Origin: Frankia alni ACN14a
GTDB lineage: Bacteria; Actinomycetota; Actinomycetes; Frankiales; Frankiaceae
Length of the DNA stretch: 64,000 bases
Direction of reading: 5' to 3'
Assembly: GCF_000058485.1 (NCBI RefSeq)
Contig: NC_008278.1
Span: forward strand, 7,372,962 to 7,436,961
Shown here piece after piece: positions 29,866 through 50,167 of this stretch; the first letter of the stretch is position 1; each line of letters starts with the position of its first letter. The notes beneath the pieces were generated by a model. The model was not told the DNA's origin. It saw only the letters and a list, made by a program, of their open reading frames with translations, and did no database searches. The translations under genes and the position numbers were made by a program.

Positions 29866-29901
29866 CCGGGGATAAACCTATCCTTAGGTTTTTCCCGGGG
29901 C
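29866..29901. promoter_or_regulatory. Edge-of-nif palindromic element, copy A
   Basis: AAACCTA (29874-29880) and TAGGTTT (29885-29891) are perfect inverted arms around TCCT. The symmetry extends outward into CCCGGGG/CCCGGGG with two mismatches over 16 bases per arm. The stretch 29874-29894 matches 50141-50161 at 18 of 21 positions, in the same orientation. Copy A is about 270 bases before the ferredoxin start. It is a candidate regulator site; a terminator reading is less likely because the copy B match is to sequence, not to stem strength. Confidence 0.5.
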
Positions 29902-30161
29902 CGCGAGATCCTCATATCGATGGCCGCAGAGTTCGAGTCGACTTGTTTACGCTCCCTTTACAGCCGTCCTCGCCAACCGGCCCGCTCCCCTGTTACGCTT
30001 TCCTGGAAGCCGCAAGTAAGGCCGAACCGTAGAACCGGGCCGGTTCCGGTGGCACGGATTTCGTGGTCGACGACGGAGTCCACCATCGATCCGCGGGTCA
30101 CCGAACACCCGGCCCGCCTTCAACACTCGACCCGTCCCGGCGACCGGCAAAGAAGGCACTC

Positions 30162-30497
30162 ATGACGTTTGTCGTCACGTCCGCCTGCATTGATGTGAAG
30201 GATACCGCCTGCCTGGGCGAATGTCCGGTCGACTGCATCTATGAGGGCGTGCGGAAGCTGTACATCAATCCGAACGAGTGCATCGACTGCGGGGCGTGCG
30301 AGTCGGCCTGTCCGGTCGACGCGATCATGAGTGTCCGGCTGGTACCGCGGGCGGAAGCCGAGTTCGTCGTGGACGAGGCCCGCTTCTTCACCACCATCCT
30401 GCCTGGGCGGGATGCACCCGTCGGCGATCCGGGCGGCGCAGGCAGGGTAGGCCCGATCAGGGCCGACACCCCCTTCGTCGCGGGGTACGGACGCTGA
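30162..30497 (+). CDS. Seven-iron ferredoxin, probable nitrogenase electron donor
   Basis: 111-residue soluble electron carrier. The Cys pattern is that of 3Fe-4S/4Fe-4S ferredoxins: Cys9, Cys17, Cys21 then Pro, Cys25, and Cys40-x2-Cys43-x2-Cys46-x3-Cys50-Pro. The C-terminal ~45 residues match those of actinobacterial/Azotobacter FdI-type proteins (RFFTTILPGRDAPVGDPGG). ATG 30162. It faces korB tail to tail, separated by two terminators. Location at the nif edge with KorAB suggests it carries electrons from 2-oxoacid oxidation to NifH. Element A lies upstream. Confidence 0.92.
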   Translation: MTFVVTSACIDVKDTACLGECPVDCIYEGVRKLYINPNECIDCGACESACPVDAIMSVRLVPRAEAEFVVDEARFFTTILPGRDAPVGDPGGAGRVGPIRADTPFVAGYGR

Positions 30498-30611
30498 CGG
30501 CACAAGCCGCCGGCGAAGGCTGACGCGGCCACGGCGTCAGCGGGACCGCCGGCTACGGCCGGTGCTCAGGACCACCCCCGTCCGGGCACCGGCCTTTCAA
30601 CGTCACATCAT

Positions 30612-30649
30612 GCCGCCGGTCGGCCGCAGCGAAGCGGCCGACCGGCGGC
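30612..30649 (+). terminator. Perfect 16-base hairpin after ferredoxin gene
   Basis: Arms GCCGCCGGTCGGCCGC and GCGGCCGACCGGCGGC around AGCGAA, followed by TTTGT on the plus strand. It is about 115 bases after the ferredoxin stop. Confidence 0.75.
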
Positions 30650-30779
30650 TTTGTCGTGGGCCCCCGCCGGCAGACGATGCCCCGACCGGCGCCGCTTTCC
30701 CACTCGACTTCTCCCGGCTCAGGCCCACTCCGTGCGCCGACCCACTCCGCTCCGGCCTTCTCCCGACCTTTCCGGATCC

Positions 30780-30912
30780 GGCCCCCGGTTCCGGCCTTTC
30801 GCGCTGCGGCCTTTCCGGCTGCGGCCTTTCCGGTTCCAGCCTTTCCGGCTTCGGCCTTTCCGACTGCGGCCCCCGGTTCCGGCCCCCGGTTCCGGCCTTT
30901 ACGGTCCCGGCC
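30780..30912. repeat. Imperfect 15-base tandem repeat between ferredoxin and korB
   Basis: About six to eight diverged copies of a CGGCCTTTCCGGCTG-like unit, the last ones merging into CCCCCGGTTCCGG copies. Because 15 is a multiple of three, one frame mimics a pentapeptide (xGLSG) repeat and the other strand a Lys-Ala repeat. There is no start with a ribosome site, and flanking terminators argue against coding. It lies in the untranslated gap between two converging transcripts. Confidence 0.7.
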
Positions 30913-31054
30913 TGCCGGCTCCGGTCTCTCCCCCACCGGTCTTTCCGGCCTTCCGATACCGACCCGCCCGGACAGGTTCCCCCGTGCGGGGTCGGCCGAC
31001 GCGGTATTTCCCGGGCGGCATTCCGCGGTGGTAGACCCGGCCGTGCCACACAGG

Positions 31055-47635: not shown

Positions 47636-47684
47636 GGTCGGGACCTCATCCTCGACGGTGTCGGTGCAGGTGGGCGTGGGATCG

Positions 47685-48548
47685 TCAGGCGACCGCGGCG
47701 GCCTTGCCGATCACGCTCTCGTCCTCCTGCGCCATGATCCCGAAGTCGATGAGGAGCTCCTCGAGCTCGTCCATCGTGATCGGGGTCGGGATCGTCTTCA
47801 TGTCGTTGTTGACGATCTTGTTGGCCAGCTGGCGGTACTCGTCGGCCTGGCTGTTCTTCGGGTCGTACTCGATGACCGTCATCCGGCGCAGCTCGGCGTG
47901 CTGCACGACGTTGTTACGCGGGATGAAGTGGATCATCTGGGTGTTGAGACGGCGGGCGAGCTCCATGATCAGCTCGTCCTCGCGGTCGGTCTTGCGGCTG
48001 TTGCAGATGAGCCCGCCGAGCCGGACACCGCCGGAGTGCGCGTACTTCAGGATGCCTCGGGCGATGTTGTTCGCCGCGTACATCGCCATCATCTCGCCGG
48101 AGGTGACGATGTAGATCTCCTGCGCCTTGCCCTGGCGGATCGGCATCGCGAACCCACCACACACAACGTCACCGAGGACGTCGTAGGTGACGAAGTCGAG
48201 GTCCTCGTACGCGCCGGCCTCCTCCAGGTAGGTGATGGAGGTGATGACGCCACGGCCGGCGCAGCCCACACCCGGCTCCGGGCCACCGGACTCGACGCAC
48301 TTGATGCCCCACTGGCCCTCGACGAGCACCTCGTCGAGCTCCAGGTCCTCGACCGAACCCTTCTCGGCGGCGAGCTGGATGACGGAGGTCTGCGCCTTCG
48401 AGTGCAGGATCAGGCGGGTCGAGTCAGCCTTCGGGTCGCAGCCAACGATCATGACGCGCTGGCCCATCTCGGCCATGGCCGCCATGGTGTTCTGCTGGGT
48501 GGTGGACTTGCCGATACCACCCTTGCCGTAGAAGGCGATCTGGCGCAT
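47685..48548 (-). CDS. nifH: Nitrogenase iron protein (dinitrogenase reductase)
   Basis: 287 residues. P-loop: [15 protein letters not shown]. Bridging 4Fe-4S ligands are Cys96 in GVGCAGRG and Cys130 in [10 protein letters not shown]. Arg99, beside Cys96, is the position modified by DraT in other diazotrophs. It passes electrons from ferredoxin to NifDK with ATP hydrolysis. ATG 48548 follows a strong AAGGAGG. The 176-base gap to nifV probably holds the main nifHDK promoter or a processing site. Confidence 0.99.
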
Positions 48549-48724
48549 GCGGTGCTCCTCCTTGGGACGGTTGCCCGGCGCGCGGTCACCGGGGCTCGGC
48601 CATGCCGGTCGGGCTGGCCGGGCCGCTCGGCCCGCGGGCTGCCGGACGTGCCGCCGGTCGGTTGACCGGGACGTCGGCACTACCGTGGTGCTGGTCGTAC
48701 GACCCCTGGCGCGGGGCAGGTCGG

Positions 48725-49939
48725 TCAGACCTGCTCTTCGCGCCGGGGGGCCTCCACTCGGGGGGTCGGCATCTCTACCCGCCCGAGAAGCTCCTGGAAG
48801 TCACGGCCGTGAAGGCCGCGCTTGTGCTGGGTGGCGGCGGCGCGGACCCGCTCCAGCAGGGGTTCGATCTCGTCGTCCTCGGCGGTCAGTCCGTACTGCT
48901 CGAGGGCGTAGCGGACCGAGGCCCGCCCGCTGTGCTTGCCGATCGCCAGCCGCCGCCGCCCGCCGACCTCGGCGGGGTCGAACGGCTCGTACGTCGCCGG
49001 GTGGCGCAGGATGCCGTGCACGTGGATGCCCGACTCGTGCGCGAACACCGACTCGCCGACCACCGCCTTACCCGCCGGCAGGGGCCGGCGTGCGGCCCGC
49101 GACACCAGTCGGGCAAGGCTGCGAAACGACGTCGTGTCCAGGTCGACGGGCAGCTTCAGCAGGTGCCGAAGCGCCATCGCGACCTCTTCGATCGGGGCGT
49201 TCCCGGCGCGTTCACCCAGGCCCAGCACGGTGGTGCTGACCCAGGTGAACCCCGCCTGGACGGCGGCGATGGTGTTGGCCGTCGCCAGGCCGAAGTCGTC
49301 GTGGGCGTGGATCTCCCACGGCCCCGGGACCGCCCTGACCAGTCGCCCCAGCCGATCGTGCGCGCTCACCGGGTCGAGCAGGCCGACGGTGTCGGCCCAG
49401 CGCAGCCTGGTGACGCCCAGTTCCCGCAGTTCGCCCGCCAGGTCCGTGACGAACGCGTCGTCGGCGCGGGAGGCGTCCTCGAAACCGACGCTCACCCGCA
49501 TCCCGCGGTCCGTCGCGTCCGCAACACAGTCGCGGACCCGCAGCCGCGCCCAGGCCCGGTCCCGCCCCAACTTGCTCTTCAGGTGCAAGTCGGAGACCGG
49601 GATGGTCAGGTGCGCGGTCACGAGGCCGCAGCTGGCCGCGGCCTCGACGTCGCGGTGGTCGGCCCGGCACCAGCCCACGATCTCCGCGTGCGGATCGGTT
49701 GCGAGGATCTCCCGCAGCACGTCCCGCTCGGTGACACCCATCGCCGGGATTCCGGCCTCGATCTGGTGTACTCCGATGGCGTCCAGGGCAGCGGCGATGG
49801 CGAGTTTCTCGGCCGCGGTGAATGCGACGCCAGGCGCCTGCTCGCCGTCGCGGAGCGTGGTGTCGCAGAATTTGATCGCCGCGTCCGGCTGTATCGCCGT
49901 GGTAGATGAGCTGGGAAAACGGGGGTCTCGCACTGTCAT
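48725..49939 (-). CDS. nifV: Homocitrate synthase
   Basis: 404 residues, cytosolic enzyme condensing acetyl-CoA and 2-oxoglutarate to homocitrate, the organic ligand of FeMo-cofactor. Signature strings: [34 protein letters not shown] and [10 protein letters not shown]. Metal and substrate motif [18 protein letters not shown] 49939 chosen; GTG 49942 is one codon earlier. No strong ribosome site is seen. First gene of the leftward nif series. Confidence 0.96.
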
Positions 49940-49942
49940 CAC

Positions 49943-50138
49943 CAGCCGTTGCTCCGGGACTGAAGACCATGGGCTGCGCCGCGAACTGTGGTTCTGCGTT
50001 TGTTCGGCGGCGACATGAATCAGACTAGGAGGCGATTATTTCGAGGCTGCAAGCGCCGGTAACTTCCGGGTTAACAGGTATTCCGAGCGGATGAGTGCAA
50101 GCTTTTCCGTCGGGATATCTCGAAGGATATCTGCCAGG
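49943..50138. other. Promoter-bearing gap upstream of nifV
   Basis: Noticeably less GC-rich than its surroundings, fitting a promoter zone for the leftward nif genes. GGATATCT occurs twice, 12 bases apart (50113-50120, 50125-50132), just before element B. There is no sigma-54 box (GG-N10-GC with correct flanks) that I can defend. Confidence 0.5.
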
Positions 50139-50167
50139 AAAAACTTATCCTTGGATTTTTCTTTGGG
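50139..50167. promoter_or_regulatory. Edge-of-nif element, copy B
   Basis: 50141-50161 matches element A (29874-29894) at 18 of 21 positions, consensus AAACyTATCCTTrGrTTTTT then C. All three differences are transitions. It sits about 200 bases upstream of nifV and 550 bases upstream of the 145-residue gene. The palindrome is weaker than in copy A. Confidence 0.5.

Follow-up and report, generated by a model that had tools for sequence, protein, structure and literature searches.

NifA acts from upstream activator sites of the form TGT-N10-ACA, together with sigma-54 promoters that carry a -24/-12 element. For Frankia, no homologues of nifA, nifL, rpoN, ntcA or hetR are reported, and a homology-based search for a nif regulator in nitrogen-fixing actinobacteria found none, according to PMC5745019. 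Actinobacterial GlnR boxes are given in PMC10704036 as GTnAC-n6-GTnAC and t/gTAAC-n6-Gc/aAAC, and BldC of Streptomyces is described as a head-to-tail oligomer bound, ahead of the promoter, to AT-rich direct repeats that vary in number (PMC5859096). The present analysis concerns a 64,000-nucleotide stretch of Frankia alni ACN14a (NC_008278.1, positions 7,372,962 to 7,436,961; the window), in which a 21-base element lies at both edges of the nif block, as copy A before the ferredoxin gene fdx and as copy B before nifV. Judging by sequence comparison, both sites are quite probably upstream activator elements of a small regulon that comprises nif as read from nifV and two ferredoxins, one linked to nif and a second (fdxI) that is unlinked. 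In nitrogen-fixing actinobacteria, the control region so defined probably serves to turn on nitrogenase along with its ferredoxin partners. It consists of an inverted half-site with direct 12-bp repeats, followed by a GlnR-like box and then, 47-50 bp from where the box starts, a predicted -10 hexamer TAnnnT (Table 1).

As in GlnR boxes, two 5-bp half-sites with a 6-bp spacer stand upstream of a sigma-70-type -10 hexamer in a nitrogen-controlled promoter, but the first base is T rather than G, the second half reads GTTAC or TTTAC and the box is a predicted one; the 12-bp array further upstream is not part of GlnR sites as described in PMC10704036. As in BldC sites, a variable number of AT-rich direct repeats, here 12-bp units, precedes the promoter. 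The BldC repeat is 9 bp long and reads AATTxxxxC (PMC5859096), whereas here the period is 12, the core is TTTTCC/TATCC and neither of the two promoters holds a tandem AATT repeat; because the repeat unit differs (9 vs 12 bp), the array was not filed as a BldC site. Like NifA sites, the element would be an upstream activator site common to nif promoters, but no TGT-N10-ACA and no -24/-12 motif was found within two mismatches in either promoter. When the consensuses of sigma-54, NifA, NtcA, AmtR-like, CRP and DnaA sites were searched for in the two promoters, together with that of BldC, none was found bar three GG-N10-GC cores, all in the nifV region.

The original prediction had described the same 21-base element at both edges of the nif block, and both the coordinates and the identity (18 of 21 positions, same strand) were confirmed. 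Each copy precedes the outermost gene of an inward-reading unit (fdx on the + strand, the nifV-led nif genes on the - strand), and copy B also sits in the gap before a divergent open reading frame (ORF) of 145 aa. The orientation, predicted to be the same, is so for the + strand but opposite relative to transcription, because the two promoters face each other. The 7+4+7 palindrome predicted for copy A is likewise present there (7/7 arm pairs around a 4-base centre, 14/18 positions self-complementary), but perfect symmetry is not general, since copy B pairs at only 4/7 arm positions (8/18 self-complementary). The shared pattern gave no match in 100 shuffles of the window. With up to three mismatches it occurs exactly twice in the 7,497,934-bp genome, as in the window, these being copies A and B, and a reversed control pattern gave no match genome-wide; the strong motif is thus not scattered, both of its occurrences flanking nif.

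In the nifV sense, copy B forms part of an array of 12-bp units, with boundaries drawn by eye, and the 21-mer belongs to a longer element in which an inverted GGAAAAA/GGATAA half-site on the far side accompanies the direct units. Self-similarity peaked at a lag of 12 at nifV (z 13.7), fdx (z 6.1) and Frankia fdxI (z 9.1), as well as at Parafrankia-like nifH (z 6.8) and in metagenome-assembled genomes (MAGs; z 6.4). In six fdx sites, the outer arms match GGAAAAA/TTTTTCC exactly, and the fdx sites of genomes G003, G004 and G010 have 24 bp between these arms, compared to 12. At nifV, an asymmetric core reads in one direction in six genomes, in reverse in six and indeterminately in one, with identical coordinates. 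Between Frankia lineages, the 12-bp core of the nifV promoters appears inverted in place, as though the stretch enclosed by the arms had been turned round.

In the window, the strict form of the box is found in these two promoters only, and at nifV the box starts at -132 from the ORF start in 13/13 Frankia genomes. In 24/24 nif promoters (13 Frankia nifV, 6 Parafrankia-like nifH and 5 separate Parafrankia-like nifV), the box start is followed 47 bp on by a TAnnnT hexamer; in the 12 fdx promoters this spacing is 48 bp (11) or 49 bp (1). The boxes TTAAC-n6-GTTAC and TTTAC-n6-TTTAC stand at a fixed distance from the predicted -10. The distances from site to box fall into classes of 47-50, 60-63, 73-74, 86 or 110 bp. 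Taken modulo 12, 34 of 37 distances equal 2 (23) or 1 (11), with one each at 0, 3 and 11, and the vector strength is 0.93 at a period of 12, 0.76 at 11 and 0.85 at 13; these figures are descriptive, the related genomes not being independent, and exclude the 13 nifV sites, eight of which trained the scoring matrix, and the fdx promoters of G007 and G012, which have no significant site. The pattern KTWAC-n6-KTTACC occurs three times in the genome, and around the other two occurrences ORFs are listed with no nitrogen gene assigned. Boxes of the GlnR type precede two of the three glutamine-synthetase genes over the Pfam cut-off in the same genome (GTAACATAAACGAAAC and TTAACAATCACGGAAC), and none was found upstream of the third.

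Table 1. Position of the sites, promoter elements and genes, in window coordinates unless otherwise indicated.
Feature	Position	Strand	Sequence or remarks
Copy A, 21-mer	29874-29894	+	AAACCTATCCTTAGGTTTTTC
Copy A, full 26-bp element	29870..29895	+	GGATAAACCTATCCTTAGGTTTTTCC; 266 bp upstream of fdx
GlnR-like box TTTAC-n6-TTTAC, fdx promoter	29946..29961	+	Copy A lies 50 bp upstream; box found in 12/12 Frankia fdx promoters
Predicted -10 hexamer TACGCT (TAnnnT), fdx promoter	29994..29999	+	48 bp from box start
fdx, 4Fe-4S ferredoxin (Pfam Fer4)	30162..30497	+	Convergent with nif genes; from translation and Pfam
nifV, first gene of nif cluster (predicted start)	48725..49942	-	
344-bp nif promoter fragment of published green fluorescent protein reporter (PMC6769113)	49949..50292	-	Holds copy B, array, box and predicted -10
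Predicted -10 hexamer TAGTCT, nifV promoter	50022..50027	-	47 bp from box start
GlnR-like box TTAAC-n6-GTTAC, nifV promoter	50059..50074	-	62 bp downstream of 26-bp element; same place in 13/13
12-bp repeat array containing copy B	50101..50162	-	nifV sense: AGAAAAATCCAAGGATAAG TTTTTCCTGGCA GATATCCTTCGA GATATCCCGACG GAAAAGC; lag-12 self-similarity
Copy B, full 26-bp element	50137..50162	+	GGAAAAACTTATCCTTGGATTTTTCT; -220..-195 from nifV ORF start in 13/13 Frankia genomes
Copy B, 21-mer	50141-50161	+	AAACTTATCCTTGGATTTTTC
Divergent 145-aa ORF (predicted start)	50708..51145	+	Beside nif in array-bearing relatives; candidate regulator
Second ferredoxin gene, same genome	G000:C1:4132226-4132552		Outside the window; upstream region L183

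Conservation was assayed in the 13 genomes of the genus Frankia, the ACN14a genome included; widening the relatives to the whole order gave an unchanged set of 35 genomes. Matches within three mismatches were detected in 10/13 Frankia genomes (controls 0/13), and upstream alignments revealed the motif at one fixed position before nifV in all 13. The element of the nif-linked fdx was clear in 7/12 and weak but above shuffles in 3/12 (G001, G002 and G008). With a scoring matrix trained solely on eight Frankia nifV sites, at most 1 of 100 shuffles reached the score at 10/12 fdx, 6/6 Parafrankia-like nifH and 3/3 MAG nifV promoters. The predicted conservation before orthologous genes was thus borne out for nifV (13/13) and less well for fdx (10/12 above shuffles).

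A sequence model of the 26-bp element, with 150 of 228-497 candidates scored per genome, gave 21 matches in 12/13 Frankia genomes, all on the nifV or nif-fdx side, one of the 21 being placed by neighbour genes only; the weaker fdxI sites were not among them. The reading of an element confined to nif, taken from this model, was too strict, and a looser two-unit pattern led to the second ferredoxin. This pattern gave 43 matches in 12/13 genomes (reversed control, 4), of which 27 lay at nif or nif-fdx, 3 at fdxI and 13 elsewhere; among the 27, G005:C739 was assigned by its neighbours only. Given the 13 matches elsewhere, further members of the regulon beyond nif, fdx and fdxI are possible. A separate motif scan found five matches in the ACN14a genome, one of them elsewhere (7070404). 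No fdx match was found in G005, and this genome has a site 25 bp short of a contig end, next to ORFs which appear to resemble the fdx neighbours of the window. A G005 contig with a similar site (L014) carries, to judge by sequence, a putative receiver-like and a putative truncated-globin-like ORF. In the window, the ORFs upstream of fdx include a receiver-domain response regulator (26597-27220) and a small unidentified ORF (28063-28512).

The three fdxI matches of the looser pattern lie about 250-270 bp upstream of the gene. Going by gene order, the second ferredoxin gene is probably FRAAL3855 (fdxI), for which a 12.67-fold higher abundance in nodules is listed in PMC8951365. When the fdxI upstream regions of 18 genomes were compared (12 Frankia and 6 of the Parafrankia-like genus g5), all 18 contained a box, TTTAC/TTAAC-n6-TTCAC/TTTCAC-like or GTTAC-n6-TTTAC, with the hexamer at 48 or 50 bp, and in all 18 the best-scoring site lay 50-110 bp before the box, at 0-2 modulo 12. 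No more than 6 of 100 shuffles reached the score in any of the 18 (3 in G016, 1 each in G019 and G021), and 17 of the scores were above that of the best control tile (4.1, the maximum of 359 tiles of 450 bp, a set without those adjoining the two nif promoters). In 5/5 cases, the promoter of another ferredoxin paralogue had neither site nor box.

Outside Frankia, the array and box precede nifH in 6/6 Parafrankia-like genomes and nifV in 3/3 nif-bearing MAGs, with looser boxes in the latter (TTAAC-n6-GTAAC, TTAAC-n6-CTTAC and TTTAT-n6-GTAAC) and CAnnAT instead of TAnnnT at 47 bp from the box start. Two of these MAGs carry the label Mycobacterium and one the label Frankia. Those labelled Mycobacterium sp. 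(L152 and L153) have nifV-nifH with the divergent ORF. Five separate Parafrankia-like nifV units keep the box and the -10. A third nif-bearing genus, g6, which we take to be Protofrankia as a guess, shows a box-like GTAAC/GTTAC-n6-GATAC before nifV in 5/5 genomes, as judged by eye.

Primers published for the nif promoter of ACN14a have exact matches in the window, and the published promoter fragment could be mapped from the primer table. In F. alni, this 344-bp fragment drove egfp 101.6-fold more without nitrogen, or 8.5-fold per plasmid copy, matching nifH, and the fluorescence was seen chiefly in vesicles (PMC6769113). The reporter shows the sufficiency of the whole fragment, not which part of it is needed. 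In mutants of another strain, the nifE, nifH and nifV transcripts were lost in parallel (PMC5745019).

In the mechanism proposed, a putative protein would occupy neighbouring repeats, with each 12 bp taken by one subunit, and would cooperate with the regulator at the box, be it GlnR or another of the OmpR type. Sigma-70-type RNA polymerase would thereby be recruited when fixed nitrogen is scarce, and nitrogenase and its electron donors would be switched on together.

Several observations weigh against activator elements of a three-promoter regulon. The fdx element was not detected in G007 and G012 and was weak in G001, G002 and G008, and the fdxI site of G007 scored 3.4 (6/100 shuffles), below the best control tile. 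Shuffle statistics in general ignore relatedness. Lag-12 self-similarity was not significant at Parafrankia-like fdxI (z 1.9), and other lags were raised too (13 at nifV, z 7.1; 13 at nifH, z 4.5; 14 in the MAGs, z 4.0; 6 at Frankia fdxI, z 6.3). At the position of G in the GlnR consensus, the box carries T, and the MAG boxes were chosen by eye, TTTAT-n6-GTAAC being degenerate. The search of g6 revealed no site before nifV (5/5) or nifH (5/5). The five separate Parafrankia-like nifV units had no convincing array (going by score alone, two have weak sites: L040 with 1.0, its end 48 bp from the box, and L042 with 4.6, 20 bp from it), and the four Parafrankia-like nif-fdx upstream regions examined had neither site nor box. 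Finally, the inner gaps checked within the nif cluster carry neither box nor array, and nifE, nifH and nifV are treated as separate operons in another strain (PMC5745019); joint control of all nif genes from copy B is therefore an assumption.

Among the other explanations, a simple palindrome serving as the operator of a single symmetric dimer, activator or repressor, would suit the complete arm pairing of copy A, the exact outer arms of six fdx sites and a core whose orientation can flip. It is nevertheless improbable, considering the incomplete pairing of copy B, the 24-bp arm spacing of three fdx sites, which would separate the half-sites of a fixed dimer, and the additional direct 12-bp repeats at nifV, nifH and fdxI; because lengths grow in whole 12-bp units, an oligomerising protein fits better. 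The array could also consist of degenerate extra sites for the box protein, GlnR or another OmpR-type regulator binding everything. GlnR is indeed described as binding head to tail and may use several boxes per promoter (PMC10704036), but the array units lack a common GTnAC core, their period is 12 rather than 11 bp and half-sites occur on both strands, so that we consider this unlikely as well.

Smaller still is the chance that the element is AT-rich DNA that serves in bending or as the target of a nucleoid protein (Lsr2, for example), which would mean silencing and not specific activation. The element is an AT-rich island in surroundings of 69-72% GC, and BldC is described as reading AT-rich minor grooves (PMC5859096), but a TTTTCC/TATCC core is conserved beyond AT content, the register to the box is precise and strong sites are few in the genome. 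Additive curvature, moreover, needs the helical repeat of 10.5 bp, with which 12-bp phasing does not match. Least of all is an element acting as RNA to be expected, be it a leader hairpin, a terminator or an attenuator. For an RNA of 33 nt that includes copy A, the folding energy is -15.4 kcal/mol, but copy B folds to only -5.7, the arms are AT-rich and the site lies upstream of the predicted -10 in the aligned promoters; such an element is disfavoured also because the core orientation is opposite between genomes at the same coordinates.

The original suggestion of a nif-coordinating site is therefore supported at the level of the DNA comparisons, although its unit is part of the 12-bp array in register with a GlnR-like box and not a 21-bp palindrome. 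No published description of such a nif motif in Frankia was found in the literature searched, which covers few subscription journals. Taken singly, the parts are of known kinds; what appears to be new is how they are combined, and the 12-bp register.

As for the protein binding the array, the divergent 145-aa ORF is one candidate. ORF and array occur together beside nif in Frankia (ORF in 12/13, a contig ending in the other), in 6/6 Parafrankia-like genomes and in three MAGs, two of which were found via the ORF, so that their co-occurrence holds by construction, and the third, G034, also via nifV. In g6, whose nif has no array, the ORF was not found within about 1.5 kb of nifV or in a pattern-based GTDB scan. 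The protein is 63-99% identical in 13 aligned relatives and gave no Pfam or NCBIfam match; PDB sequence matches had E values of 0.35 or worse, 3 of 14 family members touch DUF6244 (best E 0.11), and the AlphaFold2 model is poor (mean predicted local distance difference test score 57.7) and uninformative on DNA binding. That it is the array-binding nif regulator, representing a new family of oligomerising activators that tile DNA in 12-bp steps and work with GlnR, is a tentative proposal with the odds against it; if true, the 145-aa protein and GlnR would stand in place of NifA and sigma-54.

For the control of nif in Frankia and other nitrogen-fixing actinobacteria, whose genomes are reported to lack many of the key nif regulators (nifA, nifL and rpoN) as well as ntcA (PMC5745019), the present analysis supplies exact bait DNA, a predicted promoter with coordinates, a proposed three-promoter regulon, a published reporter that can be modified and a candidate protein, and thus makes the question of this control directly testable.

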